In this document: one piece after another, positions 48,612 through 64,000 of the stretch
How positions within the stretch are numbered: position 1 is the stretch's first letter
How the letters are laid out: every line of letters begins with the position of its first letter
Assembly (NCBI RefSeq): GCF_017569925.1
Contig: NZ_CP050854.1
Span: 3,038,001-3,102,000 of the forward strand
From: Brenneria izadpanahii
Lineage (GTDB): Bacteria; Pseudomonadota; Gammaproteobacteria; Enterobacterales; Enterobacteriaceae
Direction: 5' to 3'
Length of the DNA stretch: 64,000 bases
Notes under the pieces: model-generated
What the model was told of the DNA's origin: nothing
Seen by the model: only the letters and a program-made list of their open reading frames with translations
Database searches by the model: none
Program-made: the position numbers and the translations under genes

Positions 48612-50045
48612 TTGGGATATAACCACGACCGTTTCATTAAAAAGTTAAAAGACACAGACTGGTATAAGAAACGATATTCAAACCGTGTTCTATTTTGGCG
48701 AGAGATTTCACCGCTTGCTTTTCCCATCTTTATTGAGGGTCTGTGCGTCGTCCTGATGGGGGTCTTCAGTACCTTTCTGGTGAGTTGGCTGGGCAAAGAA
48801 GCGATGGCGGCGGTTGGTCTGGCCGATAGTTTTAACATGCTGATTATCGCGTTTTTTACCGCCGTTGCGCTGGGTACCGCCGTCGTCGTGGCATTCAGCC
48901 TGGGCCAGCGCAATAGAAAACAGGCCAGGGCCGCTTCCCGCCAGTCGATATCCCTGCTGGTTTTGGTTTCGTTTCTGCTGGTGATATTGGTCGAATTCGC
49001 CGGTTCCGAAATTATTGATCTGATTGCCGGTCAGGCGGACGACAACGTCAAAAGCCTGGCGTTGACCTTCCTGAAGTGGACGGTATGGGGATATCCCGCG
49101 CTGGCGGTCGCCCTGGTCGGATGCGGCGCGCTACGCGGCGCCGGGAATAGCAGACTGCCGATGGTCATTAATATCGGGATGAATATTCTCAATATTGTCA
49201 TCAGCAGCCTATTGATTTACGGATTTTCTTCTTGGGATGGCTTCGGCTTTATCGGCGCAGGCATCGGGATCACCGTTTCCCGCTATATCGGCGCGCTATT
49301 CGTGGTTCTGACGCTGATGCACGGCTTTAAGGGCGCGCTGCGAATCCCCTTTAAATCCTACTTCGCCCCATTCACCTCCGCTATTTTGTATGAGGTTCTC
49401 AGCATCGGTATTCCCGCCAGCGTTGAATCGGTCATGTTTAACGTCGGCAAGCTGATCACGCAACGTTTTGTCGCCGGGATGGGAACCGAAGTCATAGCCG
49501 GGAACTTCATCGCCTTTTCCATTGTGGCCTTGATTAACCTGCCCGGTAACTCTCTGGCCTCGGCCTCCACCATCATTGTCGGTACGCGGTTAGGCAAAGG
49601 GCAAATTATGCAGTCTATCCGGCAACTGAATTATATTTTCTGGCTGTCAAATATCGGCCTGTGCCTGCTGGCTATTCTTTCCATCCCAAGCGCAAAATTT
49701 ATGGCGTCGTTTTATACCGATGAACCGGAAGTGATAGAGGTGGCTAAACACCTTATTTGGCTCAACGCCCTGTTTACCCCCTTCTGGGCCGCCTCATGGG
49801 TCTTGCCCGCCGGGTTAAAAGGAGCGAAAGACGCCAGCTATACGATGTGGATTGCGGTGGCCGGCATGTGGGGATGCCGGATTATCGCCGGGTATATTCT
49901 GGGCGTTATGCTCGGATTCGGCGTTATCGGCGTATGGATGGGGATGTTTCTGGACTGGATCGTCCGCGGTTTCTTTTACTATCGCCGCATGACGAGCGGG
50001 CGCTGGCTGTGGCGCTATGCCCCGCAGGAAACGCTGGTTAAATAA
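48612..50045 (+). CDS. MATE-family efflux transporter (EmmdR/YeeO-like)
   Basis: 477-residue inner-membrane exporter with about 12 helices in two pseudo-repeats, each beginning with the MATE pattern (WREISPLAFPIFIEGLCVV and LYEVLSIGIPASVESVMFNVG). The overall sequence resembles the EmmdR/YeeO branch, which exports cationic drugs or flavins using a cation gradient. Start is TTG at 48612 with GGGGAAA upstream; no ATG is available in frame. Substrate unknown. Confidence 0.87.
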   Translation: MGYNHDRFIKKLKDTDWYKKRYSNRVLFWREISPLAFPIFIEGLCVVLMGVFSTFLVSWLGKEAMAAVGLADSFNMLIIAFFTAVALGTAVVVAFSLGQRNRKQARAASRQSISLLVLVSFLLVILVEFAGSEIIDLIAGQADDNVKSLALTFLKWTVWGYPALAVALVGCGALRGAGNSRLPMVINIGMNILNIVISSLLIYGFSSWDGFGFIGAGIGITVSRYIGALFVVLTLMHGFKGALRIPFKSYFAPFTSAILYEVLSIGIPASVESVMFNVGKLITQRFVAGMGTEVIAGNFIAFSIVALINLPGNSLASASTIIVGTRLGKGQIMQSIRQLNYIFWLSNIGLCLLAILSIPSAKFMASFYTDEPEVIEVAKHLIWLNALFTPFWAASWVLPAGLKGAKDASYTMWIAVAGMWGCRIIAGYILGVMLGFGVIGVWMGMFLDWIVRGFFYYRRMTSGRWLWRYAPQETLVK

Positions 50046-50255: not shown

Positions 50256-50993
50256 TTAATGTTGGCGCAGATCGCGGAGAAAGCGCCGCACCCTGGGATG
50301 CTCAGGCGCGGTGAAAAATTTCTCCGGCGGGGATTTTTCAAGAATAACGCCCTGATCCATAAACCAGATGGTATCCGCCACCTCTCGGGCGAAATTCATT
50401 TCATGGGTCACGCACATCATGGTCATCCCCTCCTGCGCCAGATTACGCATCACGCTGAGCACTTCGCCCACCATTTCCGGATCCAGCGCGCTGGTCGGTT
50501 CATCAAACAACATCACCGGCGGCTTCATGGCCAGCGCCCGGGCAATCGCCACCCTCTGCTGCTGCCCGCCGGATAGCTGCGCCGGATAAGCATTAGCCTT
50601 ATGCGACAGGCCGACGCGCTCAAGCAATTCTCCCGCGTATTGTTTCGCTTCCGAGCGCTTGATGCCCAGCACTTTGATCGGCGATAACATGATGTTATCC
50701 AACACCGAAATATGCGGGAACAGATTGAAATTCTGAAACACGAAACCGATACGCGTGCGCAACTGGTTCAAGCGGGCGCTGCTGCCGTGGATATCCATGC
50801 CGTCAAACAGAATCTGTCCGTCATTGATGGGCTCCAGGCGGTTAACGGTACGGATCAGCGTCGATTTTCCCGAACCGGACGGGCCGCAGACCACCACCAC
50901 CTCGCCGCTTTTGATCTCGGCATTCAGATCGGTCAGAGCCTGATAATCGCCATACCATTTGTTGACTTTGTTGAACAAAATTATCGGTCTCAT
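50256..50993 (-). CDS. Polar amino-acid ABC transporter ATP-binding protein
   Basis: 245-residue ATPase of the GlnQ/GltL type: Walker [20 protein letters not shown]-loop [11 protein letters not shown], signature [16 protein letters not shown], Walker [16 protein letters not shown] and H-loop VTHEMNF. It energises the two permeases encoded just before it; its ATG overlaps the preceding stop by 4 bases. Operon order is BCCP-like gene, dehydrogenase, permease, permease, ATPase. No periplasmic binding protein gene is present in this operon. Confidence 0.95.
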
Positions 50994-51760
50994 CCTCGCA
51001 CTCCTTCTTGTGACTGTGCTTCGGTTAACAGCACGGCGTTTTCTCTTTCCGGATCTACGCGTCCTTCATTGCGGCGTTTGCGCGCAATGCGTTCCTCCAG
51101 ATAGTTCGCCAGCTTCGTCAAACTGAAACAGATGACGTAGTAACCCAATGCAACGATGGCAAACACTTCAAACGGTTTTGTCAGCAGTTGGTTATTGACC
51201 TGATTCGCCGCGAAAGTCAGTTCCGGCACGTTAATCACATAGCCAAGCGTACTATCCTTGATGATCGATACCAGTTGGCTAACCAGACTTGGCAGCGTGT
51301 TATACAGCGCCTGCGGTAAAATCACCGTGCAATAGGCCCGGATGTAGCCCATTCCCAACGCACGGGCGGCTTCATATTGCCCGCCGGGCAGCGCCTGAAT
51401 ACCGCCGCGCACGATCTCCGCGATGTAGGCGCTTTCGTAAATCACCAACGTGCACAACATGGTCGTGAAGCCGTTGATGTTATGGCCGATTAGCAACGGT
51501 ACGCAGAAATAGGTCCAGAACACCACCATCAGTAAAGGAATGCCGCGCAGCAGGTAAACCCAGCAGGCCGCGGGCCAACTCAGCCAGCGAAATGGCGAAA
51601 TCCTCGCCATCCCCAGCAATACGCCGACCGGGAATGCCAGCGCCACCGCCAACAGCGACAAGACCAGGGTGCAGATCACCCCGCCCAGCGGGCCGTTGGG
51701 AAACTGTCCGACCAGAAACAGCATCCAGTTATCATGCAAGATAGTCATGACATCAAACAT
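50990..51760 (-). CDS. Polar amino-acid ABC transporter permease
   Basis: 256-residue permease of the HisMQ/GlnP family with about five helices and the EAA loop [23 protein letters not shown] (about 140-162) that contacts the ATPase. Start at 51760 is preferred, with GAGG 7 bases upstream, over 51775. It follows the other permease by 4 bases and forms a heterodimer with it. Its C-terminal tail is long and charged. Confidence 0.92.
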
Positions 51761-51764
51761 AGGA

Positions 51765-52463
51765 TTACCTCGCATACACCCGTTGGAAACGCTGCGCCAG
51801 CAACGCGCCCGCCCCCATCAGCAACAGAGAAAAAAGCAGATAGGCAACCGAAGCGATTAAGTAGGATTCGAAGGTGCGGAAGGTATAGTTTTCAATTTCG
51901 CGGGTAACATAGGTCAATTCCGCAACGCCGATCACCATTGCCAGACTGGTGTTTTTAAACAGCAGCACCGTATGGTTGATCAGCGAAGGCAGCGCATTGC
52001 GAACGCCCTGCGGCAGAATGACCGAGCGCATGGCGCGGATATAACTCATGCCCAGCGCGCGCGCGGCCTCATTTTGTCCGTCGGGGATCGCCCTCAGGCC
52101 GCTGCGGATATCCTCGGAAAAATAGGCGGACTGGCAAAAACCCAGCGCCATCATGGCAAACAGAAACTCGGCGTTATAATCGTTCAACCAGATCTGCAAA
52201 GATTCGGGAAGCAGCGTCGGAATAGCGAAATACCAGATCATCAATTGCACCAGCGTCGGCACGTTACGATGATAGGAGACAAACGCCGCCACCAGCAGTA
52301 CCGCATAACGACGCTGGGTTAGTCGGATGGCGACCAGCGCCAGCGCCAGAATCATTGCCAGCATCCAGGAGCCGACGGCCAGTTTAAGGGTGAGCACCAT
52401 GCCATCGACAATCATCTGCGCATAGCGTTCGGAAAAAACGGTGCCAAAATCGAGTGTCATCAT
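51765..52463 (-). CDS. Polar amino-acid ABC transporter permease
   Basis: 232-residue HisMQ-family permease with about five helices and the EAA motif [39 protein letters not shown] is also family-typical. It pairs with the downstream permease and ATPase. Substrate would be set by a binding protein that is not encoded here. Confidence 0.92.
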   Translation of the reverse strand: MMTLDFGTVFSERYAQMIVDGMVLTLKLAVGSWMLAMILALALVAIRLTQRRYAVLLVAAFVSYHRNVPTLVQLMIWYFAIPTLLPESLQIWLNDYNAEFLFAMMALGFCQSAYFSEDIRSGLRAIPDGQNEAARALGMSYIRAMRSVILPQGVRNALPSLINHTVLLFKNTSLAMVIGVAELTYVTREIENYTFRTFESYLIASVAYLLFSLLLMGAGALLAQRFQRVYAR

Positions 52464-52496
52464 TAACGTCTCCCCGTATTTCGTCCGGCGTGTTTA

Positions 52497-53246
52497 CTAT
52501 GCATGCCCGCCCGGCCGCATGGTGGACAGACCGCCCGGCACCTGTAGCGTCGGCGTAATTTCAATATGGCCGAAGTTCACCGCCACCGGCGCCGCCAGCA
52601 CAAAAGCCACCGTGTCGGCGATATCTTTCGCCTGCGGCAGTTCAAAACCATCGATAAACTGCCGGCGTCCTTCCTCTTTATCCCCCATTACATTGCCGAA
52701 AATATCCGTCGCCACCCTGCCGGGGCAGATTTCGGTGATGCGCACCCGCTTGCCGTAACAATCCACCCGCAGTTGACGCGAAAGCGCATGTACGCCGGCT
52801 TTGGTGGCGTGGTAGATCGAGTTGCCGCCGAAGTTATAAATCGCCGCGATTGACGTAATGTTGATGACATGGCCGCAGTCACGCGCGACCATGCCGGGCA
52901 CCAGCAGACGGCACAGGTGCAGCACCGCGCGCAAATTGACATCCACCTGAGTATCGATGGCTTCCTCATCGGCGTTAAGGATCGAGCCGGGGCGGGAAAC
53001 GCCGGCGTTGTTCACCAGAATATCCACCTCGATTTCGGCGCACAGGCGGGTCAAGGCTTCCAGATCGCTGACGTCGATCGCATGCGGAATACACCCCGTG
53101 CGGGCGGCCAGTTCTGCCAATTGCTCTTGACGGCGCGCCACGGCATGAACGGTGATGCCTTCCTGACAAAGACGCTCGACGATCGCCTCCCCCATTCCGG
53201 CGGAAGCCCCGGTGACCAGTGCGGTTTTATAATCTGAAAATGGCAT
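52497..53246 (-). CDS. Short-chain dehydrogenase/reductase
   Basis: 249-residue classical SDR: NAD(P) site TGASAGMGEAIVERL, NNAGV, catalytic S (NITSIAAIYNF), Y and K (YHATKAG), and ICPGRVATDIFG. It resembles YdfG-like serine/3-hydroxy acid dehydrogenases. Start at 53246 (MPFSDYK) follows GGAGAGG; the upstream extension in frame looks non-coding. Being first of the transporter operon, it probably oxidises or reduces a hydroxy or keto group of the imported compound. Confidence 0.92.
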   Translation of the reverse strand: MPFSDYKTALVTGASAGMGEAIVERLCQEGITVHAVARRQEQLAELAARTGCIPHAIDVSDLEALTRLCAEIEVDILVNNAGVSRPGSILNADEEAIDTQVDVNLRAVLHLCRLLVPGMVARDCGHVINITSIAAIYNFGGNSIYHATKAGVHALSRQLRVDCYGKRVRITEICPGRVATDIFGNVMGDKEEGRRQFIDGFELPQAKDIADTVAFVLAAPVAVNFGHIEITPTLQVPGGLSTMRPGGHA

Positions 53247-53368
53247 CTTGCCTCTCCTGTAACGGTTCCGGCGGTGATGATTCGCGCCGGAAATCATGTG
53301 TAATGTGACTGTATCCACTAAATCCCGGCAGGCATAAGACATAAACCATGTGAGGTGATAAGGGGGTC

Positions 53369-53803
53369 TTATAACGCTGGCCGGATGGCCATAATTTCGC
53401 TGTCGTATTCAACGCTATCGCCGTGTTCCACCGCCAAAGACGCCACCACGCCCGACGCCGGGCTGAGCAGCGGCAAATAAACCAGCCCCACTTTAATCAG
53501 CGCCAGCAGCGCGTCTTTCGCCACCGTTTCACCCACCGCGGTAAAGGGTTTTCCATTCGAGGGATGGTGCAGCAGCACATGCCCCGGCATCATCGAGCAG
53601 GCGCGCCGCAGGGCCGTCTCCGGTACGGCGCAGTCAGCAGGCGCGCCGACAGGCATAACCGGCTGAGCGACCGGCTGGCGCGGCGCATAGGCCAATCGGA
53701 CCTTGTAATGACAATTACGGATTTCGATACCGGACAGGCCGGATTGATGCATTTTGCGCGCAATCTGACGCAACTCATTAATATTAAAAGAATTATATTT
53801 CAT
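53369..53803 (-). CDS. Biotin carboxyl carrier-like protein lacking the biotinylation lysine
   Basis: 144-residue protein shaped like AccB. The N-terminal helix NINELRQIARKMHQSGLSGIEI matches the BCCP opening, an Ala/Pro linker follows, and the C-terminal biotinyl domain contains HPSNGKPFTAVGETVAKDALLALI. In normal carriers EAMKM surrounds the modified lysine; here the aligned segment is KVGLVYL, so the lysine is replaced by leucine. It may be a structural partner in the 5-oxoprolinase-type or carboxylase assembly, or a decayed gene. Start at 53803 fits family length. Confidence 0.78.
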   Translation of the reverse strand: MKYNSFNINELRQIARKMHQSGLSGIEIRNCHYKVRLAYAPRQPVAQPVMPVGAPADCAVPETALRRACSMMPGHVLLHHPSNGKPFTAVGETVAKDALLALIKVGLVYLPLLSPASGVVASLAVEHGDSVEYDSEIMAIRPAL

Positions 53804-53923
53804 GATATTTCCGCTACCCTCTGACGATATGGCAATGCCGCCCGCGCACGATAACCACACTGTAACGCGCGGTTATCGCTATCGGGTAAGAGGGTTTCGC
53901 TGTACGTAGATAAGCGGCGCTTA

Positions 53924-54847
53924 TCACCCCACCAGCGTCAACGGACGGTTATCCACGGTACGGTTCGCCATCAGCGACAGCAGAATGGTTTTCACCGCTT
54001 CGGCAGGCTGCGACAGCGGCAAATGGTCGGAAGTACAGAAGGAGAGCGGCGCCTGAATATCCGGGTTGACGATTTTCGCCATCCAGACATTGGCGGATTT
54101 CACCATGCTCCGCGCGGCTGATTCCGGCAGGACGGTGCATCCCATCCCCGCCGTCACCGCGCCGCTGAGCGTGGTGAGCGATTCGATTTCACACTTCACC
54201 CGATACGCCAGATTTTGCTGCACAAAGGCCTCATCCAGCAGCTTGCGCATAATGTTGTAGATACGCGGCAAGAACAGGTCATAACCTACCACCTCGGCCA
54301 GCGGGATCGTCTTGCGCGCCGCGCCCAGGCTCATCGGACAGATAAAATAGAGTTCTTCCTTCATCAACGGCAGGAAACGCAAACCGTGAACTTCACGGTT
54401 GCCGTAAATCACCGCCATATCCATACGGCCGCTCATAATCAGTTCGCTGAGCGTGGTGCCGAAGTTTTCATTGAAATAGATCAGGATCCCAGGATATTGA
54501 CGATGAACCTCTTCCATCAGCGGGATCGCCAGTTGCTGTGCGGCCGTTCCCGGCGCCAGCCCCACCGACACCTCTCCCGACAGCGACTGACCGGAGCCGT
54601 TAATTGCGCTTTGCGCCTGATCGCACTGACGCAAAATCACCTGGGCATGGGTGTAAAGCGTCTTGCCGGCTTCAGTCGGCGTCACGCCTCGCTTGGTGCG
54701 TATCAGCAGTTGCTGATTGACCTCGCCTTCCAGCGTCGCCAGTTGCTGACTCAGCGCCGGTTGCGCGATATGGAGGATATCGGCGGCCTGCGTCAGGCTA
54801 CCCACGTCAACAATTTTAATAAAATATTTAAGACGACGGAGATTCAT
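53924..54847 (-). CDS. LysR-family transcriptional regulator (Nac-like)
   Basis: 307-residue regulator with an N-terminal helix-turn-helix (MNLRRLKYFIKIVDVGSLTQAADILHIAQPALSQQL, residues 1-36) and a ligand-binding domain. It belongs to the Nac/Cbl-like branch. ATG 54847 follows GGAGG. It is co-oriented with the amino-acid ABC operon and ends 65 bases past... upstream of the carrier-like gene, so it likely regulates the adjacent operons. It resembles the second LysR in this cluster (61666-62565). Confidence 0.93.
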   Translation of the reverse strand: MNLRRLKYFIKIVDVGSLTQAADILHIAQPALSQQLATLEGEVNQQLLIRTKRGVTPTEAGKTLYTHAQVILRQCDQAQSAINGSGQSLSGEVSVGLAPGTAAQQLAIPLMEEVHRQYPGILIYFNENFGTTLSELIMSGRMDMAVIYGNREVHGLRFLPLMKEELYFICPMSLGAARKTIPLAEVVGYDLFLPRIYNIMRKLLDEAFVQQNLAYRVKCEIESLTTLSGAVTAGMGCTVLPESAARSMVKSANVWMAKIVNPDIQAPLSFCTSDHLPLSQPAEAVKTILLSLMANRTVDNRPLTLVG

Positions 54848-55071
54848 ACTTGCCTCCATAAAGTGATAAGCCTGACTTTAAGACAGGCAATATCTATGCC
54901 ATCAGCATCCAGCCAAGATGTTCTTATGGAACCCAAAGATTAAAAATATTTAAAAATCAAAAAAGTAGATAAAGATATGCGCTTTTTTAATAACCCGTTC
55001 CGCCATGCCGGCCTGAACCACGCCGGCGGATATTGCACAATTGTGGCACAAAGGTGAAACGTTAAAGCACA

Positions 55072-56172
55072 TCATACATCGGCGATCAGGTGGTTGCTCT
55101 CCGCCGACCAGGACAGGCAGACCGCGGAACCGATAGGATAGATTTGGTCGGCACTCTCCCCCTGCGCTTGCCGCCAGGCTATCATCTCTTCGCCGCCGCT
55201 CAGTTGCAGGGTGTAATGCAGCATATAACCGCGATACACCACCTGCGTGACCTTTGCCGCCACGCAATTATTCTCGGCGAGAGCCGCGCTCTCCGTCAGC
55301 GGCCGCAAGGTAATCGCTTCCGGGCGCACGGTCGCCACCGCCCGATCGCCGGAGACGTCGCACTGCGCCGCCTCAAGGCGCAAACCCGACGGCGTGCCCA
55401 GGAGTACGCTTCCATCCTGACGGCGTTGCTCAATGCGCGCGGGCAGAAAATTAGACGCGCCGATAAATCCCGCCACAAAGCGGTTAACCGGTTTACGATA
55501 GATCTCCGCGGCCGGCGCAATCTGCTCCAGCTTACCGCCCTGCATGACCGCAATCTGGTCGGCCATGGTCAACGCTTCGTCCTGATCGTGCGTCACCATA
55601 ATCGTGGTCAGTCCCAACCGCTGCTGAAGATTGCGGATCTCCAACTGCATACTTTCCCGCAGACTTTTATCCAGCGCCCCCAACGGTTCGTCCAACAGCA
55701 GCATATCCGGTTCGATAACCAACGCCCGCGCCAGCGAAACCCGCTGCTGCTGGCCGCCGGAAAGCTGCGACGGCAGACGATCGCCGAAAGATTTCAATTG
55801 CACCATGTCCAGCGCCCTGGCGACCTTATCCGCAAACTCCGTTTTTAACTGTCCGCGCATTTTCAGGCCGAAAGCCACATTTTCCGCCACCGTCATATGC
55901 GGGAACAGCGCGTAGTTCTGAAACAACATGCCGACATTACGCCGGTGCACCGCCGTGCCGATAATCGAACGCCCGCCGACCAGAATATCGCCGCCGGTCG
56001 GCGCAACCAGACCGGCGATCATGCGTAAACAGGTGGTTTTTCCGCAGCCGCTGGGGCCGAGCAGCGCCAGCATCTCGCCGGCATCGACCACCAGCGAAAC
56101 GTTATCCACCGCCGCCGTTTTGCCGTAATGCTTGCACAGCTTGTCCAGGCGGACTTCAAACGATCTCAACAT
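55072..56172 (-). CDS. Spermidine/putrescine-type ABC transporter ATP-binding protein
   Basis: 366-residue PotA-like ATPase: Walker A LLGPSGCGKTTCLRMIAGL, Q-loop MLFQNYALFPHMTV, signature [16 protein letters not shown], Walker B MLLLDEPLGALD, H-loop VTHDQDEA, then a C-terminal TOBE domain (about 280-360). It is the last gene of the four-gene importer transcript. Despite the family name, many such importers take up iron chelates, opines or amino-acid derivatives. Confidence 0.94.
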   Translation of the reverse strand: MLRSFEVRLDKLCKHYGKTAAVDNVSLVVDAGEMLALLGPSGCGKTTCLRMIAGLVAPTGGDILVGGRSIIGTAVHRRNVGMLFQNYALFPHMTVAENVAFGLKMRGQLKTEFADKVARALDMVQLKSFGDRLPSQLSGGQQQRVSLARALVIEPDMLLLDEPLGALDKSLRESMQLEIRNLQQRLGLTTIMVTHDQDEALTMADQIAVMQGGKLEQIAPAAEIYRKPVNRFVAGFIGASNFLPARIEQRRQDGSVLLGTPSGLRLEAAQCDVSGDRAVATVRPEAITLRPLTESAALAENNCVAAKVTQVVYRGYMLHYTLQLSGGEEMIAWRQAQGESADQIYPIGSAVCLSWSAESNHLIADV

Positions 56173-56179
56173 AATGACC

Positions 56180-57247
56180 TCAACCGCTGAACGTCTGGTT
56201 GTATTTTTCCAGCAACTCCGCGCGACGCGGGATGATATAGCTCCAGTCCGGCGTAAACAGATTCAGCTCCTGCATCCGGCTTTCCGGATAAGCCAAATAT
56301 TTCAACGTTGCGGCGTCAAATTCGATGCCGCGCACCGTCGGCGCGCTCAGCGTCGCCTCCGCCAGCATTTTCTGCACCGAAGGTTCCAATAGCCGATTGA
56401 TCCACGCCAGTCCCAGTTCGCGCTGCGGCGCGCCTTTGACCAACGCCAAACCGTTGATGCCGGTAAACGCGCCCTCCTGCGGATAAGTCATATCCAACGG
56501 CACGCCTTTTTTGGTGTGCGGATAAATCGCCTTGGAATATTCAATGCCGCCAATCATCGCCTGCCCCTGCGCCACCATCATCACCTGCGCTTCGCTATCG
56601 TAAACCGTCATCACATTCGGCTTCAGCTGCGCCAGCTTTTCCCATCCCTGATCGATCAGATACTGCGCCTCATGCAGCGGCTTACCGGTCGCCAGCGCCG
56701 CCGCGACGATCAACATCAGGATGCTTTGGGTATTTTTCGGCGTATTCAGAATGATCTGGCGAGCATACTTCGGATCGAAAATTTCGGCATAGCTTTTAAT
56801 CGGCTGCATCATGCCGGTGTTGATAAACAATCCGGCCATTGATACGGAAAACCCTACGCCGTGGCTGTCGTCAAGCACATAGCGATCGAACACATTTTTC
56901 AGGTTGGGGATCTCATCGGCCGATAACGGTTCGATCAGCCCTTCGGCTTTCGCCTGCGGAACGCCGATATCGTCCATCGACATCACGCTATACACCGGTT
57001 TGTTTTTGGTGGCCCGCAGCGCGGCGATATTCGCCAGCGTCGGCCCCTCGGTGGTTAACACCCGGCATTGATAGTCGCGTTCGAAAACCGGCGCCACCTC
57101 TTTTTTGATCAGGGCGCCCTGCGCCGAGTTATACACGCCGACCTGCAATATGCGATCCGCCGCATACGCTTTGGTATTCAGGTAAGGCAACACGGCCGTT
57201 GCCGCCATCGCTTGCAGAAACGTACGTCGTTTCATCGTCTTCTCCAT
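56180..57247 (-). CDS. ABC transporter substrate-binding protein, Tat-type signal
   Basis: 355-residue PotD/SBP_bac-like periplasmic binding protein. The N-terminus MEKTMKRRTFLQAMAATAVL carries a twin-arginine motif (RRTFL) and a hydrophobic stretch ending AYA, so export as a folded protein by Tat is likely. The mature part shows the two-lobed pattern (ILQVGVYNSAQGALIKKEV, KAIYPHTKKGVPLDMTYP). It defines the substrate of the importer, which cannot be predicted. It sits 7 bases before the ATPase gene on the same strand. Confidence 0.92.
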   Translation of the reverse strand: MEKTMKRRTFLQAMAATAVLPYLNTKAYAADRILQVGVYNSAQGALIKKEVAPVFERDYQCRVLTTEGPTLANIAALRATKNKPVYSVMSMDDIGVPQAKAEGLIEPLSADEIPNLKNVFDRYVLDDSHGVGFSVSMAGLFINTGMMQPIKSYAEIFDPKYARQIILNTPKNTQSILMLIVAAALATGKPLHEAQYLIDQGWEKLAQLKPNVMTVYDSEAQVMMVAQGQAMIGGIEYSKAIYPHTKKGVPLDMTYPQEGAFTGINGLALVKGAPQRELGLAWINRLLEPSVQKMLAEATLSAPTVRGIEFDAATLKYLAYPESRMQELNLFTPDWSYIIPRRAELLEKYNQTFSG

Positions 57248-57271
57248 GCCTCTTCCGGTGGAATTGAAAGA

Positions 57272-58075
57272 CTATGCCGCCATGGCGCGGCGCAGCCCGA
57301 CCAGGCGCTCCAGCGCGACGACAACCAGTGTTGCCAGTAAAATAATCAGGGTGGACATGGTCGCTACCGATGGATCAAACACCGTGCCGATCTGGCGATA
57401 CAGCACCACCGGCACCGGGGTATTGGCCGAATCGGCCAACCACATGGAAACCGGGTAATTATCGAAAGACACCATGAAACAAAAGATCGCGCCGGACACC
57501 ACGCCGGGGGCGATTTGCGGGAACACCACATGCCGAAAGGCGGCGAGCCGGCCGGCGCCCAGCGTGCGGGCGGCCTCTTCCAGACTGGGATTCACCAGTT
57601 CCAGACTGGTCAATACCGTTCTCACTACATACGGCGACGTCACTACGGTATGCGCCAGCAGCAGATTCAGTTTGACATTGCCCCAGCCGTAGCTGGAAAA
57701 CAGCTGCAACAGCGCCAGGCCGGTAATCAGCACCGGGAAGATCAGCGGCGACAGCAACAGCCCTTTGCACAGCGAAGCGTACGGCAGCTTGCCGCGCACC
57801 AGCGCAAAGGCGGCGGGCACGCCGAGCAACAACGACAGCAGCGTCGTGCCTATCGCCAACAACGTGCTGAATAACAGGGCTTCCATGAATTCACTGTTGC
57901 CCAACACCTTGCCGTACCAATCGAGCGTAAAGCCCGTCGGCGGAAAGCTGACGAAATAGCCGTCCGAGAAGGAAATCACCACAATCAGCACGATCGGCGT
58001 CAGAATGAAAATCAACATGAAAGCGGTGATAACGTAAAGCAGAAAGCCGGAAAAACCGCGCAGACTGTTGCTCAT
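57272..58075 (-). CDS. Spermidine/putrescine-type ABC transporter permease (PotC-like)
   Basis: 267-residue permease with six helices and the EAA loop LEEAARTLGAGRLAAFRHVVFPQIAPG (about 165-190). The N-terminal helix LLYVITAFMLIFILTPIVLIV and the FTLDWYGKVL segment are PotC-type. Its ATG overlaps the end of the other permease gene, as usual in these operons. Confidence 0.93.
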   Translation of the reverse strand: MSNSLRGFSGFLLYVITAFMLIFILTPIVLIVVISFSDGYFVSFPPTGFTLDWYGKVLGNSEFMEALLFSTLLAIGTTLLSLLLGVPAAFALVRGKLPYASLCKGLLLSPLIFPVLITGLALLQLFSSYGWGNVKLNLLLAHTVVTSPYVVRTVLTSLELVNPSLEEAARTLGAGRLAAFRHVVFPQIAPGVVSGAIFCFMVSFDNYPVSMWLADSANTPVPVVLYRQIGTVFDPSVATMSTLIILLATLVVVALERLVGLRRAMAA

Positions 58076-58974
58076 TTGGACTCTCCATACAGGCGGCGCC
58101 CGCCAAGCAGTTTCATCGACAGGGTATTCACGGTAATCACGATAAAAACCAGAATGGTGGCGATAGCCGCGCCGAACGGCCAGTCATACACCGAAACGAT
58201 CTGCTGCTCGGCGAGATTGCCCAGCATCTGAGCCTGAGGACCGCCAACCAGCGCGGGGATCACATAAGAACCGGCCGCCAGCGAGAAAACCAGCGTCATG
58301 CCGGCCACCAGCCCCGGCAGGCTGAGCGGCAACGTCACACGCAGAAATACGCTCCAGGGCGGCGCGCCCAGCGTGCTGGCGGCGGATTGCAAATTGGGAT
58401 CGATCTTGCCCAGCGCCGATGCCAGCGGTAATACCATCATAGGGAAAAAGATATGCAACGAGCCGATAACCACCGCCCATTCGGTAAACATCAGCGCATT
58501 CGGGCGTTCGATAATTCCCAAATGCAACAGCACATAGTTAATTAAACCGCTGGGGCCGTTATTCAGGATCAACTGCCAGCCGTAGGCGCGCACCACCACG
58601 CTAACCGCCAGCGGCGCGATGATGATCAAGGTCAGAATGCGGGAAAACCACGCGCTGCCCCGCACCAGCACGATGGCGACCGGATAGGCCAGCACCGCCG
58701 CAATCAGAGAGGTCATCACGCTGATGCGCAACGTGGTCCACAATACTTTGCTGTATAACGCCACTTCAAAAAAATGCACATAATGGGACAACGTATAAGG
58801 CGCGCCGATTTCCCCATCAGGCGATTGGGTCATAAGGCTAAAAAACATTAGCCGGATAGCCGGGGTAAAAAAGAAAAAAAGCTGAAATACCAATAAAGGA
58901 ATAATCAATAATGAAGGCGATTGCCAGCTTATTAATTTTTTGGAGCGATTAATCGCGGCAACAATATTGGTCAT
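58072..58974 (-). CDS. Spermidine/putrescine-type ABC transporter permease (PotB-like)
   Basis: 300-residue permease with six helices (first at about residues 25-48) and the EAA motif LQSAASTLGAPPWSVFLRVTLPLSLPG. ATG 58974 with AGGAAA upstream is preferred; the open frame extends to 59046. It is the first gene of the importer operon, transcribed away from the aminotransferase gene. Confidence 0.92.
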   Translation of the reverse strand: MTNIVAAINRSKKLISWQSPSLLIIPLLVFQLFFFFTPAIRLMFFSLMTQSPDGEIGAPYTLSHYVHFFEVALYSKVLWTTLRISVMTSLIAAVLAYPVAIVLVRGSAWFSRILTLIIIAPLAVSVVVRAYGWQLILNNGPSGLINYVLLHLGIIERPNALMFTEWAVVIGSLHIFFPMMVLPLASALGKIDPNLQSAASTLGAPPWSVFLRVTLPLSLPGLVAGMTLVFSLAAGSYVIPALVGGPQAQMLGNLAEQQIVSVYDWPFGAAIATILVFIVITVNTLSMKLLGGRRLYGESK

Positions 58975-59694
58975 GGCTTTTCCTGTAAACAATTTTATTT
59001 CTATATAAAAACGAAACGCATAATCGCCATATCGGCGGATACGCAAGGAAACAGGAATGGGTACATGGGTAATACCCTTAATCTTTCAAGTTGCAGATGT
59101 GTCGGCTGCCTAAATACTCGCCCCTACCCTGGGACTCGCCCTGTTGGGGCCGCCGCAAGCGGCGTTCACATCCGCTTGCGGCAAATTTATCGCTTGCTTG
59201 CCGCGTTACAAGGCCCATCAATGAGCCGCGTCCGTAAAGGGCCAACGCCGCGCGTCGTTTAAAACGACGACCTTTTGACCTGCAACTCGAAATCTAGCGG
59301 GTATATGACGTCAATCGGTTAATACTGTATGACCAGCTATTTTTCTTTTCACCAGACAATAAAGTGACGAATGCCGCAAACAATAATACTTTTTCACTAT
59401 GCAGGGATGCGGTCTTGTTATGACGGAATATTAATAACTTTTTCCTATAGATAATAAATGACGCGCTTCCGGCTAACTACGCCGCGCCGAAAACCAATCA
59501 TGCGTATTAATGTCCGGTAAAACGCTTATCTATTGTTTTATGTTATGTAACCACAACAAAGCACTATTGGCTTAAGCGCGCCATTCCCCCGTACTCTTTT
59601 TTTGACCTCGCGTCACAACCTTTTATTTTATTCGGCCGCTCGGCCTTCCTTGCCGCGGCGGCTTATTCACTTTGACTTTTGGAATATCTGCGCC
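58975..59694. other. Divergent control region between importer and aminotransferase genes
   Basis: 720 bases between two divergent operons. It contains a MITE-like element at 59072-59304; the AT-rich part at 59305-59600 probably holds the promoters and LysR binding sites. A frame at 59602-59694 upstream of the aminotransferase start reads open but lacks family similarity. Confidence 0.55.
59072..59304. repeat. MITE-like palindromic element
   Basis: About 233 bases with imperfect inverted termini: ATACCCTTAATCTTTCAAG followed by TTGCAG on the left (59072-59096), and the complement CTGCAACTCGAAATCTAGCG plus GGTAT on the right (59280-59304). The interior is GC-rich and contains no gene. Similar 'ATACCC...TTTCAAGTTGCAG' termini are common in enterobacterial intergenic repeats. 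Confidence 0.7.
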
Positions 59695-60897
59695 ATGCCT
59701 GAAATAGCCGATCGCTTAAAAAATGTCACTGTATCCGCTTCCGTTGCAATGACCCAGAAGGCACGGGATCTTGCCGCTCAGGGCGTGCATGTTATCGGCC
59801 TGTCCACCGGCGAGCCCGACTTTCCCACGCCGGAACACGCCATTGAAGCGGCATATGCCGCCGCGCTAGCCGGCGATACGCGCTATCCGCCGACGGACGG
59901 CACCCCGGCGTTGCGGGCGGCGATCCAACGCAAATTCAAGCGCGATAACCATCTCGATTACCCGGTCGGCCAGATCCTGACCGCCTGCGGCGCCAAACAG
60001 ATTATATTCAACGCCATCATGGCGACCTGCAACCCTGGCGACGAAGTGCTGATCCCATCCCCTTCCTGGATCAGCTATGCCGATATCGTAAAATTCTCCG
60101 GCGCCACGCCGGTGCCGGTTCGCTGCACGCAGAGCAACGGTTTTAAACCGCTGCCCGCCGATCTGGAAGCCGCCATCACCCCCAAGACCAAATGGCTGCT
60201 GCTCAACTACCCCAGCAATCCAACGGGCTCCGTTTGCAGCCGGGAAGAGTTGCAGGGCATCGCCGACGTGATGCTGCGTCATCCCGATATCTGGATCATG
60301 ACCGATGATATTTACGAACACCTTATCTACGACGATGCCGTGTTCTATACGATCGCCGAAGTAGAACCGCGTCTGCTGGATCGCGTGCTAACGGTGAACG
60401 GCGTATCCAAAGCCTATTCGATGACCGGCTGGCGGCTGGGTTTCTGCGGCGGCCCCGGCGATCTGATCAACGCGATGAGCAACGTCAATACGCAAAACAG
60501 CGGCGGCATCTGCACCTTGGCGCAGGCCGCGGCGGTGGCGGTGCTTGACGGACCGCAGGCTTTGCTTAAAGAGCGCGCGGAAATCTACCGTCAACGCCGT
60601 GATTATGTACTGGAGCGGCTGCACTCCATCGACAATCTGAGCTGCCATAAGCCGCAAGGCGCGTTTTACCTGTTCGTCAATATCGCCGCCTATATCGGCA
60701 AAACCACTGAAGGCGGCCGCTACATCGGCAACGATGCGGATTTCGTCATGGCGCTGATCGAAGAGCAGCATGTCGTTACCGTACAGGGCGCCGCCTACGG
60801 CATGAGTCCGTATTTCCGCATTTCCTATGCCACCAGCATGGAAATTCTGGAGGAGGGTTGTCGCCGTCTGGCAGCTTTCTGCGCCAACATGAAATAA
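59695..60897 (+). CDS. Class I/II PLP-dependent aminotransferase
   Basis: 400-residue aminotransferase of the aspartate aminotransferase Ib type. It has MTQKARDLAAQGVHVIGLSTGEPDFPTPEH-type opening, GAKQIIFNAI, NYPSNPTGSVCS, MTDDIYEHLIYDD, the PLP lysine in VNGVSKAYSMTGWRLGF (K near 241) and a C-terminal arginine in YFRISYATS that binds the carboxylate. It transfers an amino group between an amino acid and a keto acid. The start at 59695 fits the family. The next gene starts 10 bases on. Confidence 0.93.
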   Translation: MPEIADRLKNVTVSASVAMTQKARDLAAQGVHVIGLSTGEPDFPTPEHAIEAAYAAALAGDTRYPPTDGTPALRAAIQRKFKRDNHLDYPVGQILTACGAKQIIFNAIMATCNPGDEVLIPSPSWISYADIVKFSGATPVPVRCTQSNGFKPLPADLEAAITPKTKWLLLNYPSNPTGSVCSREELQGIADVMLRHPDIWIMTDDIYEHLIYDDAVFYTIAEVEPRLLDRVLTVNGVSKAYSMTGWRLGFCGGPGDLINAMSNVNTQNSGGICTLAQAAAVAVLDGPQALLKERAEIYRQRRDYVLERLHSIDNLSCHKPQGAFYLFVNIAAYIGKTTEGGRYIGNDADFVMALIEEQHVVTVQGAAYGMSPYFRISYATSMEILEEGCRRLAAFCANMK

Positions 60898-60907
60898 GGA
60901 GGATAAG

Positions 60908-61600
60908 ATGCTGAATAGTCACCCGCGCGTGGTGATGGTGAGCGGGGCCTCGCGCGGCCTCGGCTTCCACATCGTACAGAGACTGCTGCAAGCCGGTTTT
61001 ACCGTATCGGCGGGCGTACGCAATCCTTCTGCGCTTGCCGGCGCGCAGCGGCTGCACCTCTTTCATTACGATGCGGAACAGAACGGCTCCGGCGAGGCGT
61101 GGGCGGCGCAAACGGCGGCCGATTTGGGCCGCATTGACGCCCTGGTCAACTGCGCCGGCATCAACCCGCGCGTGCGCGTATTGGATGAAGGCGAGGAGGC
61201 GCTGGACAGCATGTGGCGCATCAACGTGAAAGGCCCGCTACGTCTGAGCCGCGCCGCGCTGCCCTTTTTAATCGCGGCGGGGAACGGCAGAGTGATTAAC
61301 GTCGCCTCGCTCGCCGGACGCCGGGTAGGCAGTAACGTCGGCTATGCCATGACCAAGTTCGCCGTGGTGGCGTTAACGCACGGCATCAGACAGGAGTGCT
61401 GGGATAGCGGCGTGCGGGCGACGGCGCTCTGCCCCGGTTATATCGCCACCGACATGACGGCGGGCGAAACGGAAATCACGCGTGAAGAGATGACGCAACC
61501 GGCCGATCTCGCCGAGATGGTTGAGCTGCTGTTACGCTTGCCCAATACGCTGTCCATTGCCGAATTGCTGGTAAATTGCCGCAAAGAAGCCATGCTGTAG
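60908..61600 (+). CDS. Short-chain dehydrogenase/reductase
   Basis: 230-residue classical SDR: VSGASRGLGFHIVQRL (cofactor loop), NCAGIN, INVKGPLRLSRAAL, catalytic S in INVASLAGRRVG, Y and K in GYAMTKFAVVALTHG, CPGYIATDM. A GGAGG lies before its ATG. Co-transcribed with the aminotransferase, it probably reduces or oxidises the keto/hydroxy product. It is distinct from the SDR at 52497-53246. Confidence 0.92.
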   Translation: MLNSHPRVVMVSGASRGLGFHIVQRLLQAGFTVSAGVRNPSALAGAQRLHLFHYDAEQNGSGEAWAAQTAADLGRIDALVNCAGINPRVRVLDEGEEALDSMWRINVKGPLRLSRAALPFLIAAGNGRVINVASLAGRRVGSNVGYAMTKFAVVALTHGIRQECWDSGVRATALCPGYIATDMTAGETEITREEMTQPADLAEMVELLLRLPNTLSIAELLVNCRKEAML

Positions 61601-61665
61601 CCGTCATGCCGCTTGCTTAAGGCTCGATGCTACCCGGGGCGATCGGCACTATGCCGTCGCCGTTC

Positions 61666-62565
61666 TTACAGCGCCGACGTCAATTCCATAAGCAGATCGC
61701 GCACCGCGGTCGCCGGTTCGGACAGCGGCGAACGGTCTGAAACACACAGCGACAGCGTCTCCTCCATGGACTGCGAGGCAATGGATCGCACGATCACCGA
61801 CGGCGATTCCGACTGAATACGCTCGGCGATCGCTTTTGGCATGATGGTTACGCCCAGTCCGGCCCCCACCGCTTTCGAAATGCTTTTCACCGCCTCCAGC
61901 TCGCCGATAATATTCAGACTAACCTGCTGCTGACTGAACGCCAGTTCCACGGCGCGGCGAACAAAATTGTATGATGGCGGCAACAGCATCGGCAGCGGGC
62001 TAAGTTGTTCGAGCGTTAACGGCGCGCCGTCATCGTCCATGTCGAAATCCTCATGCGCCACCAGAAAAAACTCCTCCACCAGCTGCGGTTCATAGTGCAA
62101 TCCCTTGATGCCGCCGACGCCGTGAATCAGCGCCATTTCCAGACGGCCGTTCACAATCAGCTCGCTGTAAGGCTGCCCCACGCTTTCCACCAGATGCAGC
62201 AACACCCCCGGATGACGCTTACGCATCTCGGCAAACAGCGGCATAGCCAGCGTAGCGGCGACGCTGAACGGCGCCAGCCCCACCGATACCCGGCCGATGA
62301 GCCGTTGACCGGCCTCCTGCACCTCGATCTCCGCCTGCCGCAGCTGGCGCAGAATGGCGTTGGCATGGCTATACAACACTTTGCCCGCCTCCGTCGGCAC
62401 CACGCCCTGCTGGCTGCGAATCAGCAATTTGCGCTTGAAGTGGGTTTCCAGCGCGACAATCTGCTGGCTCAACGCCGGCTGGGCGATATATAAGGCATCC
62501 GCCGCCCGCGTGATGCTGCCCATATCCACAATAGTGATAAATGATTTAAGCCGTCGGGTATTCAT
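61666..62565 (-). CDS. LysR-family transcriptional regulator (Nac-like)
   Basis: 299-residue LysR protein: MNTRRLKSFITIVDMGSITRAADALYIAQPALSQQI forms the helix-turn-helix, followed by the co-inducer domain. It is close to the LysR at 53924-54847 in N-terminal pattern (both 'RLK.FI.IVD.GS.T.AAD.L.IAQPALSQQ'). ATG 62565 follows GAGGCGG. It lies 25 bases after pxpA on the same strand, so it may be made with the pxp genes and control the cluster. Confidence 0.93.
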   Translation of the reverse strand: MNTRRLKSFITIVDMGSITRAADALYIAQPALSQQIVALETHFKRKLLIRSQQGVVPTEAGKVLYSHANAILRQLRQAEIEVQEAGQRLIGRVSVGLAPFSVAATLAMPLFAEMRKRHPGVLLHLVESVGQPYSELIVNGRLEMALIHGVGGIKGLHYEPQLVEEFFLVAHEDFDMDDDGAPLTLEQLSPLPMLLPPSYNFVRRAVELAFSQQQVSLNIIGELEAVKSISKAVGAGLGVTIMPKAIAERIQSESPSVIVRSIASQSMEETLSLCVSDRSPLSEPATAVRDLLMELTSAL

Positions 62566-62590
62566 AACCGCCTCATGGATATCTATCGGA

Positions 62591-63361
62591 TTATTGCGCC
62601 ACAACCTCGGCGGCCGGCGCCACGATACCGCCATTGACTTCGATTTCACTTCTGACGATACGCGCCAGCTCCAGCGAGCCCGGCGTATCGCTGTGGATCA
62701 GGATCGACCTGGCCCGAACCGCGATAAGCTGGCCGTCGAAGGTAGTCACCGTTCCTTCCAGCAGGAACTGCCGCACGCGGGCGCGCACCGCCGCTTCATC
62801 GGTAATGACCGATCCGGCGATGCCGCGCGGCACCAGTTGCCCCTGGGCGTCATAGGCGCGATCGGCGAGAAACAGGGTCAGCGTTTGCAGGCCGCATTGC
62901 TGCGCGGCCCGTTCCACATGGGTATCAGGCTGCGAAAAGATAATGAGTTCGGGATCGATGCTTTTTATCGCTTCCATTACCTGTAGAGCCAGCGGCAGAT
63001 CGCCATTGATCATGTTGCCCATCGCCGCATGAAAGCTGACGTGCGCCACTTTCGTCCCTTCCGCTTTGGCGATAGCGCAAAGCGCGCCCAGTTGATATAG
63101 CACCTGCTGACGGATCTCATCCGCGCTGAACGGCAGCGCTTTACGCCCGAATCCCTGGCGGTCCGGCAACCCCGGATGCGCGCCGATGCCTACGCTGTTG
63201 GCCTTCGCCAGCCGCACCATGCGCGTCATAATGTTCGGATCGCCGGCGTGAAAGCCGCAGGCGATATTGGCGGAAGAGACAACCTGCATCAGCGCGTCGT
63301 CATCGCACAGACGATAAACGCCAAAACCTTCCCCCATGTCAGAATTCACATCGATTTTCAT
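62591..63361 (-). CDS. pxpA: 5-oxoprolinase subunit A (LamB/YcsF family)
   Basis: 256-residue LamB/YcsF protein: KIDVNSDMGEGFGVYRL, SANIACGFHAGDPNIM, VGIGAHPGLPDRQGFGRK, VSFHAAMGNM and ADRAYDAQGQLVPRG match PxpA, the ATP-dependent 5-oxoprolinase subunit that opens the lactam of pyroglutamate. The usual HGALYN and FADR segments read HAAMGNM and FLADRAY. It works with PxpB and PxpC; pxpC is just upstream and pxpB is not in the window. Related clusters act on other lactams or urea-like compounds, so substrate is not fixed. Confidence 0.9.
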   Translation of the reverse strand: MKIDVNSDMGEGFGVYRLCDDDALMQVVSSANIACGFHAGDPNIMTRMVRLAKANSVGIGAHPGLPDRQGFGRKALPFSADEIRQQVLYQLGALCAIAKAEGTKVAHVSFHAAMGNMINGDLPLALQVMEAIKSIDPELIIFSQPDTHVERAAQQCGLQTLTLFLADRAYDAQGQLVPRGIAGSVITDEAAVRARVRQFLLEGTVTTFDGQLIAVRARSILIHSDTPGSLELARIVRSEIEVNGGIVAPAAEVVAQ

Positions 63362-63387
63362 GTTCTGTTCCTTTGTTCATCACACCG

Positions 63388-64000
63388 TCATAAACCGCAG
63401 GCGACCTGCGCCAATTGAGGCGCATCGCGACGCAGCGCCGCCAGATAAACCTCCACCGCCCGCTCCACCGCGATGGCCTCCTGTACATCGCTCTCGATCA
63501 GCCGGATCGGTTTGCCCGGCTGTATCTGCGCCAGCCGCCACAGGTCATGCTCAATAACGCCGGCGATTTTCGGATAGCCGCCGGCGGTATTGGCGTCGCT
63601 AAGCTGAATGATCGGTTCTCCGGCCGGCGGCACCTGCACAATTCCGGGGATCAGGCCGTAAGAGCGCATTTCCACCACTTTTGACGGCCGCAGCGGCTCG
63701 CCCGACAAACGATAGCCGGTGCGGTTGCTTTGCATCGACACCACCCAGTGCTGCGACCAGAAACGCCGGGCATCCGCCGCAAACAACTCATACTCGCCGG
63801 CGGGAATGGCGCGTAACAGCGGGACGCCCTCGTCCGTGCGCGGAAAAAACGCCGCCAGCGCCACCTCCGGGGGCTCCACGCCCATGCCGCCGGCAGGCAA
63901 CGGCCGATGTTCGCTCCGGCCGATCGGCAACCGATCGCCGTTTTGCAGCGGCCGCCCCTGCCAACCGCCGAAACCGCCGCGCAGCGCCGTACTGCGCGAT
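63388..64000 (-). CDS. pxpC: 5-oxoprolinase subunit C / KipA-type carboxyltransferase domain, cut by the window edge
   Basis: C-terminal part (about 204 residues visible) of a biotin-dependent carboxyltransferase/KipA-type protein. TALRGGFGGWQGRPLQNGDRL, GYRLSGEPLRPSKVVEMRSYG and AGGYPKIAGVIEHDLWRLAQ are family blocks. The open frame continues past position 64000 with no start codon in view, so the apparent start at 63930 is only internal. It precedes pxpA by 26 bases in the same transcript. Confidence 0.9.
   Translation of the reverse strand, partial: SRSTALRGGFGGWQGRPLQNGDRLPIGRSEHRPLPAGGMGVEPPEVALAAFFPRTDEGVPLLRAIPAGEYELFAADARRFWSQHWVVSMQSNRTGYRLSGEPLRPSKVVEMRSYGLIPGIVQVPPAGEPIIQLSDANTAGGYPKIAGVIEHDLWRLAQIQPGKPIRLIESDVQEAIAVERAVEVYLAALRRDAPQLAQVACGL

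Follow-up and report, generated by a model that had tools for sequence, protein, structure and literature searches.

What nutrient is served by a run of importer, regulator and lactam-hydrolase genes in the genome of Brenneria izadpanahii? The genes fill the last part (from position 50,256) of a 64,000-nucleotide window, the whole stretch of DNA analysed here (contig NZ_CP050854.1, positions 3,038,001 to 3,102,000, in a genome of one 5.33 Mb contig). The initial annotation had grouped two ABC importers, two Nac-like LysR regulators, two short-chain dehydrogenases (SDR1 and SDR2), an aminotransferase and PxpA- and PxpC-type subunits as an uptake and catabolic cluster for a lactam- or amino-acid-like compound; all of these gene types were located in the window. 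It had missed a gene at 53369-53803 for a protein resembling the biotin carboxyl carrier protein (BCCP). Sequence comparisons lead us to favor, as fairly probable, a nitrogen-starvation regulon that scavenges an amino acid with a blocked alpha-nitrogen, the likeliest being a gamma-lactam, for example a 5-oxoproline with a substituent.

The linkage of the cluster is beyond chance, because the cluster recurs in other genomes. SDR1 was the marker for finding it. Of the family's 392 sampled genomes, 24 have an SDR1 homologue (E <= 1e-50); these 24 include the genome of the window and span 15 of 154 genera. Among 205 plasmid records matching at E <= 1e-40, 178 have at least 60% identity, and many of the hosts are rhizobia and agrobacteria. 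An amino-acid ABC importer, a Nac-like LysR regulator, an aminotransferase and PxpABC form a recurrent set on rhizobial plasmids and on Variovorax, Paraburkholderia and Pseudomonas contigs. Clusters were read in rhizobia and Rahnella, and records named Lonsdalea, Erwinia, Pantoea, Dickeya and Klebsiella contain SDR1 homologues as well. Besides the window's own, 24 enteric loci were read (L007, L126-L148); they have the Nac-like regulator (24), PxpA (24), the aminotransferase (23), the BCCP-like protein (23), PxpB (22), PxpC (22) and a solute-binding protein (SBP, 22). The corresponding counts at 17 non-enteric loci are PxpA 17, PxpC 17, PxpB 16, aminotransferase 16, BCCP-like protein 16, accC 16, accB 15, SDR1 14, an aldolase 12, Nac-like regulator 12 and SBP 12. 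This linkage in distant genomes is what the initial annotation had proposed to look for as conserved co-occurrence.

Presence at a locus was scored by an identity cut-off against a query set, some of whose members came from L008, L009, L091 and L092 and match themselves there; the annotated nac of L154 and the carrier of L094 fall under the cut-off. SDR1 served to choose the main sets of loci, the Pot-type binding protein to choose L152-L155, and similarity to the window's DNA to choose L007-L010; the selecting markers are not independent within the locus counts, which depend on how each set was chosen. Eight of the 80 loci in one SDR1 set were read (L011-L018), of which six have the cluster and L017 and L018 do not. 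One of the six, L013, is partial: the aminotransferase, pxpB, accB and accC were not found at the locus. Around the weaker SDR homologues (39-45% identity) of L017, L018 and L095 the other cluster genes are absent at all three loci, and a megablast of the cluster against E. coli genomes gave no match.

The genes also share a type of regulatory site. Both regulators exceed the cut-off of the NAC model NF008410 (Table 1). In two of ten genomes searched (G240 and G353) a Nac scoring 566-567 bits lies elsewhere, in addition to the cluster copy at 489-509 bits. The Nac-type pattern ATAAG-N5-CTTAT is found twice in the window with 0.06 expected (expected counts are from first-order Markov shuffles and ignore kinship among loci), both times in the cluster, before SDR1 and before the BCCP-like gene. 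A perfect site occurs within 250 bases upstream of SDR1 in 24/24 enteric and 10/14 non-enteric loci, the latter rising to 12/14, all but L094 and L154, if one mismatch is tolerated. Perfect sites precede the BCCP-like gene in 13/22 enteric loci and the aminotransferase in 3/23 enteric and 0/13 non-enteric loci. Before the SBP gene, which leads the pxp operon, none of 22 sites is perfect and five are within one mismatch, against 0.16 expected; upstream of PxpC and the importer ATPase no locus comes within two mismatches. A looser pattern, ATA-N9-TAT, occurs 29 times before SBP in the 22 enteric loci against 2.1 expected (a pair in 14, none in seven), five times before the aminotransferase (1.1 expected) and twice before PxpB (0.8 expected). 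Little weight attaches to the two such sites in the gap from potB to the aminotransferase, since the looser pattern is over-represented across the whole window (30 found, 15.1 expected). The site counts exclude L148, whose genome is 49% complete and has broken frames, and the count for the BCCP-like gene also excludes L139 and L144, which have no start coordinates. The same site type before SDR1 and the BCCP-like gene, and its looser form before the SBP-pxp operon, argue against the prospect, raised initially, of gene sets answering unrelated signals.

The regulator gene itself may answer to nitrogen. Of the enteric loci, 22/24 have a sigma-54-like motif (two mismatches at most) 35-60 bases upstream of the nac-like start, and 17/24 have one with at most one mismatch within 350 bases of the gene. 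Control genes at the same loci gave 0/20 (aminotransferase), 2/24 (SDR1), 0/22 each (PxpC, PxpB and SBP), 3/23 (ATPase) and 0/24 (PxpA). The single TGGCAY-N5-TTGC match in the window, with 0.76 expected by chance, is not significant alone.

The class of ligand is suggested by the SBP, which lies past the window end. There (stretch L005) come the remainder of pxpC, then pxpB, a family-3 SBP that fits the amino-acid importer, and, adjoining it, a divergent EamA permease with homologues in 17/24 other enteric and 2/17 non-enteric loci. The initial annotation had expected pxpB and perhaps accC beyond 64 kb; pxpB is there, and accC belongs to most non-enteric relatives though not to the window's cluster. 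In an alignment to AncQR the carboxylate-binding Arg is kept in 33/33 cluster SBPs, and Asn replaces Asp in 33/33; the argument is built on these aligned positions rather than on a structure of the cluster SBP. According to an excerpt of PMC5740067, Asp161 of LAO binds the ligand NH3+ together with Ser72, and OccJ, the receptor of the secondary amine octopine, has Asn202 at that position. Because the SBP keeps the Arg but has Asn for the ammonium-holding Asp, the substrate probably lacks a free alpha-ammonium, and would be a lactam or other N-substituted amino acid rather than a free amino acid. The binding-site change thereby lends support to the lactam-like substrate first proposed.

The overlooked BCCP-like protein, here called pseudo-BCCP, has a biotin/lipoyl domain (PF00364), and its AlphaFold2 model (pLDDT 84.4, pTM 0.55) matches the biotinyl domain of BCCP, 1bdo, with TMt 0.92. 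The biotin-site Lys is absent in 41/41 cluster pseudo-BCCPs and present in 16/16 true BCCPs, of which 15 are from related clusters and one is from Pantoea locus L008. The biotinylated lysine (AMK) is likewise absent from the pseudo-BCCP profile matches listed, 120 of 156. The missing lysine rules out the gene as a true AccB. Non-enteric clusters usually have both kinds of carrier, true and lysine-less, along with accC; enteric clusters have the lysine-less carrier only, with no accC or true BCCP. No biotin carboxylase was found in the window's cluster. Among the other enteric loci it occurs in 1/24 (L138, in a neighboring, more distant pxp operon), against 16/17 non-enteric loci. Trees of PxpC and PxpB, each a single FastTree run, place the enteric loci in two separate groups, one beside Pseudomonas L016 and the other beside Variovorax, Paraburkholderia, Trinickia and Bradyrhizobium, and because of this AccB-AccC has apparently been lost from enteric clusters at least twice.

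How the enteric enzyme works after these losses is the step on which our reading has its strongest competitor: the system may still depend on biotin, with the housekeeping AccB-AccC lending it carboxy-biotin and the lysine-less protein serving as adaptor. This competes with the ring-opening mechanism only, and we regard it as a serious though minority possibility. A housekeeping AccC scores over the cut-off in 22/23 other enteric cluster genomes. A second stand-alone biotin carboxylase was found in five of these 23, and also in the window's genome; the 17 others, the poorly complete G028 apart, have the housekeeping carboxylase plus matches in open frames of about 1200 residues, which we take to be urea carboxylase. 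PxpB and PxpC are compatible with borrowing as well. No residue in them marks biotin use: one conservative column in each distinguishes clusters with AccC from those without, and the sequences are therefore silent on whether the enteric enzyme drops biotin or borrows it. Against borrowing, a dedicated AccC is kept in 16/17 non-enteric loci, although non-enteric cluster hosts too have a housekeeping AccC, and there is no biotin carboxylase among the ten proteins scanned at the housekeeping PxpABC locus of the window's genome. Two outside systems bear on the point. Plant BADC, a BCCP-like protein without the biotin motif that acts beside a real BCCP, is reported in part of PMC11926652 to aid assembly of biotin carboxylase (BC) with BCCP, which favors an adaptor role. 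The entry PDB 9yx5 names AccA3 together with PxpB- and PxpC-like subunits, which suggests that proteins of these kinds can share one biotin-carboxylase complex; along with the accC of 16/17 non-enteric loci, it supports a link to biotin in the relatives.

A bolder proposal goes the other way. The lysine-less protein would be a dedicated, non-biotinylated subunit of lactam opening, the enterics would twice have gone from a biotin-dependent to a biotin-free enzyme in which the dead carrier is structurally essential, and the whole would be a nitrogen-starvation pathway, outside the named ones, for a plant-derived N-blocked amino acid. Taken in full this is somewhat unlikely.

As to the substrate, the simplest competitor is plain 5-oxoproline, taken up under nitrogen control, opened to glutamate and transaminated to 2-oxoglutarate. 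PxpABC is the known 5-oxoprolinase, the Asn of the binding protein suits a lactam, and cluster PxpB exceeds the equivalog model TIGR00370 (170, cut-off 145.55; the housekeeping copy scores 284). The other subunits point away from it. Cluster PxpA misses all three 5-oxoprolinase equivalog models (score/cut-off 235/337, 222/392 and 203/378), while the housekeeping PxpA passes two (461/378 and 375/337) and misses one (286/392); cluster PxpC scores 314 against NF045499 (cut-off 500), which the housekeeping copy passes with 558. The CT_A_B and CT_C_D domains of the cluster score 296.6 and 215.7 bits. The housekeeping copies belong to a separate, nei-linked pxpACB set in the same genome (L006), and plain 5-oxoproline leaves no role for the linked SDR or for the aldolase of 12/17 non-enteric loci. 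We therefore consider plain 5-oxoproline unlikely, and a plain 5-oxoprolinase operon was set aside; with a housekeeping 5-oxoprolinase encoded elsewhere in the genome, and with cluster PxpA and PxpC short of the curated models for that enzyme, a substituted 5-oxoproline would be the likelier substrate.

Other Pxp genes were seen in passing. At the housekeeping locus nei and pxpA are separated by a pyroglutamyl-peptidase-type gene (L006:6701-7219; Peptidase_C15, positions 70-199 of 204). A third Pxp set in the genome (L125:7598-14446) comprises pxpA, accC, pxpB and pxpC, flanked upstream by a divergent gene and downstream by another, and a small carrier gene may fill its short pxpA-accC gap. 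Bradyrhizobium sp. 62B (L153:14267-20627) has two oppositely oriented PxpB-PxpC pairs; a Pot-type importer and pxpA accompany one, and accB, accC and pseudo-BCCP the other. Defense-system models gave no match to PxpA or pseudo-BCCP.

The enzymes downstream narrow the substituent a little. A HMG/CHA-type aldolase accompanies 12/17 non-enteric loci and is absent from 22/24 other enteric loci. That of L009 scores 169 bits to 3noj, 214.7 against NF006731 (cut-off 179) and 187.3 against TIGR02798 (cut-off 304.5). Eda, which acts on 4-hydroxy-2-oxoglutarate, is present in the window's genome. The aminotransferase and aldolase would suit a route in which the ring is opened to a 4-hydroxylated glutamate, which is then transaminated and cleaved to pyruvate and a 2-oxo acid. 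The pair in relatives, and Eda in the window's genome, are therefore a weak pointer to 4-hydroxy-5-oxoproline, the best single candidate, though as an exact identification it is rather improbable.

A substrate that is N-substituted but acyclic (opine-like), with the Pxp unit carboxylating or hydrolyzing another amide, is a poorer explanation still and quite improbable. It would agree with the same Asp-to-Asn change in OccJ, in the excerpt cited, and with the many rhizobial and agrobacterial hosts, but PxpA, PxpB and PxpC are lactam-type subunit families, and the annotated stretches that were read contain no gene under the name of an opine dehydrogenase or opine oxidase.

The second importer might seem a stray. 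Its Pot-type binding protein is scarce in the family (2/392 genomes). The Pot-type importer takes the place of the amino-acid importer in the clusters of Neorhizobium, Bradyrhizobium 62B and Terrarubrum, alongside SDR2, the aminotransferase, PxpABC, accB, accC and pseudo-BCCP; the window's cluster has both types. In the sister genome (L126) a Pot-type importer is present, and the stretch read there yielded neither the amino-acid ATPase nor the SBP. That two or three unrelated modules are adjacent by chance is scarcely credible: the scarcity of the Pot-type importer would suit it, but the linkage in those three genomes, which rules this importer out as a chance neighbor, and the shared sites within the cluster both oppose it. 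We also tried to read the substrate from the Pot-type solute-binding protein, whose matches were weak only (polyamine-, opine- and iron-type proteins among others). A Pantoea sp. At-9b plasmid (L008:11634-21636) has a Pot-type importer and Nac at 72-83% identity to the window's, and the same stretch has a porin, a Glu/Leu/Phe/Val dehydrogenase, accC and a true accB; no Pxp gene is annotated in the stretches L008 and L149 of this strain.

From these observations we infer the following scheme for a regulon that scavenges an N-blocked amino acid; the substrate, the ring-opening chemistry, control in the cell and the direction of the SDRs, which may reduce, as initially supposed, or oxidize, are all part of that inference. 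In enterics, nitrogen limitation would activate sigma-54 transcription of the Nac-like regulator, which would bind the ATAAG-N5-CTTAT-type sites and turn on importers and enzymes. An N-blocked, carboxylated compound would enter through the amino-acid ABC importer or, in other bacteria, its Pot-type replacement. PxpB and PxpC would activate the ring amide with ATP for hydrolysis by PxpA; the biotin carboxylase and biotin carrier would take part in non-enteric relatives, and in enterics, where these are gone from the cluster, the lysine-less protein probably has a non-catalytic role as a subunit on PxpBC, for assembly or as a lid. The aminotransferase would convert the freed, probably acidic, amino acid into a 2-oxo acid. 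A 4-hydroxy-2-oxo acid would then be split by the HMG/CHA-type aldolase in many relatives, and perhaps by Eda in enterics. The SDRs would adjust a hydroxyl or keto group.

Several results weigh against this scheme. The comparisons turned up no close relative whose substrate is known. The aminotransferase scores 503.9 against the aspartate transaminase equivalog (PRK06107), short of the cut-off of 617, and those of the enteric loci L136, L140 and L145 are only 30-31% identical to the window's and may be a different enzyme. The window's cluster has no HMG/CHA-type aldolase, the best match in the genome being 29% identical. At two enteric loci, L128 and L141, pxpB and pxpC are absent in the stretch read, as are the SBP of L128 and the aminotransferase of L141; both retain SDR1, the importer ATPase and permeases, the regulator, PxpA and pseudo-BCCP. 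Outside the enterics the sigma-54-like promoter precedes the nac-like gene at 1/6 loci tested (L016). An enteric switch of mechanism is not visible as a residue pattern in PxpB or PxpC. Finally, at L154 the pseudo-BCCP gene stands beside accB-accC and away from pxpBC, which fits a tie to AccBC equally as a tie to PxpBC.

The features are collected in Table 1. Judged by gap size, the transcription units are Nac1-pseudo-BCCP-SDR1-permease-permease-ATPase, potB-C-D-A, aminotransferase-SDR2 and SBP-pxpB-pxpC-pxpA-Nac2, the last entering the window from past 64 kb (L005). For SDR1 and the aminotransferase the longest open frame begins upstream of the start seen in relatives, and alignment puts the starts at 53246 and 59695. 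An EmmdR/YeeO-type MATE efflux gene (window 48612-50045, 880 bits) adjoins the cluster.

Table 1. Features of the cluster, in window coordinates, with the matches behind each assignment
Feature	Position	Strand	Evidence
Amino-acid-type ABC importer, ATP-binding subunit	50256..50993	-	PF00005; nearest curated model GlnQ-like, 315.8 bits, under cut-off 379
Amino-acid-type ABC importer, permease 1	50990..51775	-	PF00528; HEQRo_perm_3TM over cut-off
Amino-acid-type ABC importer, permease 2	51765..52463	-	PF00528; HEQRo_perm_3TM over cut-off
SDR1, short-chain dehydrogenase, Ser132, YxxxK 145-149	52497..53246	-	PF00106; 69-88% identity among three aligned clusters
Perfect Nac-type site ATAAG-N5-CTTAT upstream of SDR1	53358..53372	.	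Sequence match
BCCP-like protein without biotin lysine (pseudo-BCCP)	53369..53803	-	PF00364; predicted model matches 1bdo
Perfect Nac-type site ATAAG-N5-CTTAT upstream of pseudo-BCCP gene	53910..53924	.	Sequence match
Nac-like LysR regulator 1	53924..54847	-	NF008410 503.5 bits, cut-off 309
Sigma-54-like promoter TGGCAT-N5-TTGC upstream of Nac-like 1	54887..54901	-	Sole TGGCAY-N5-TTGC match in 64 kb
Pot-type ABC importer, ATP-binding subunit	55072..56172	-	PF00005 and TOBE_2; TIGR01187 over cut-off
Pot-type ABC importer, solute-binding protein	56180..57247	-	SBP_bac_8; solved relatives weak only
Pot-type ABC importer, permease	57272..58075	-	PF00528
Pot-type ABC importer, permease, start uncertain	58072..59046	-	PF00528
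Two looser ATA-N9-TAT sites between potB and aminotransferase	59386..59448	.	Weak evidence
Aminotransferase class I/II, aspartate-aminotransferase-like	59695..60897	+	PF00155; 6f77 (solved aspartate aminotransferase A), 454 bits
SDR2	60908..61600	+	SDR models; accompanies Pot-type importer in L126, L152-L154
Nac-like LysR regulator 2	61666..62565	-	NF008410 316.9 bits; 76% identity to regulator beside Pot importer, Pantoea At-9b
PxpA-type (LamB/YcsF) lactam hydrolase subunit	62591..63361	-	Two subfamily models passed, three 5-oxoprolinase equivalog models missed
PxpC-type subunit (CT_A_B)	63388..64000, on to L005:2378	-	Continues past window end

No paper on the gene set was found in the open literature by title or abstract start, a search mostly outside which subscription papers fall. 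Each subunit family is already known; as far as the searches show, the combination, the shared sites and the conserved lysine-less carrier are undescribed. The cluster would define a nutrient pathway found repeatedly among bacteria associated with plants or soil, with shared sites and a testable ligand class, and one that annotated names (nac, PxpA, PxpB, acetyl-CoA carboxylase carrier) would mask. It also offers a natural experiment in which a biotin-dependent enzyme loses its biotin machinery, apparently twice for AccB-AccC, and retains a carrier-like protein.

Among known systems the cluster stands closest to the prokaryotic 5-oxoprolinase PxpABC, with the same three subunit families and, by the known enzyme's activity, ATP-dependent lactam opening; it differs in that PxpA and PxpC fall under the equivalog cut-offs and in having, besides these subunits, an importer, an aminotransferase, an SDR, a regulator and a BCCP-like protein. 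With urea carboxylase and other CT-type biotin-dependent carboxylases, including PDB 9yx5, it has the CT_A_B and CT_C_D domains in common. Most non-enteric relatives resemble these carboxylases further in having AccC and a true BCCP; the window's cluster has neither AccC nor a biotinylatable BCCP, and has a LamB/YcsF-type hydrolase instead. The regulators are like NAC in exceeding its model, in the sigma-54-like promoter (enterics) and in the ATAAG-N5-CTTAT-type sites, yet are distinct from the canonical Nac, as the separate, higher-scoring copies indicate. Family-3 binding proteins for free alpha-amino acids hold the ligand ammonium with an Asp, where the cluster SBP has its invariant Asn. 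The nearest functional analogue found for pseudo-BCCP is plant BADC, also BCCP-like without the biotin motif in the part of PMC11926652 cited, a likeness of function rather than of shown descent. Unlike BADC, pseudo-BCCP is bacterial, is tied to a lactam-type PxpABC, and is kept in enterics whose clusters have no biotin carboxylase or BCCP of their own.

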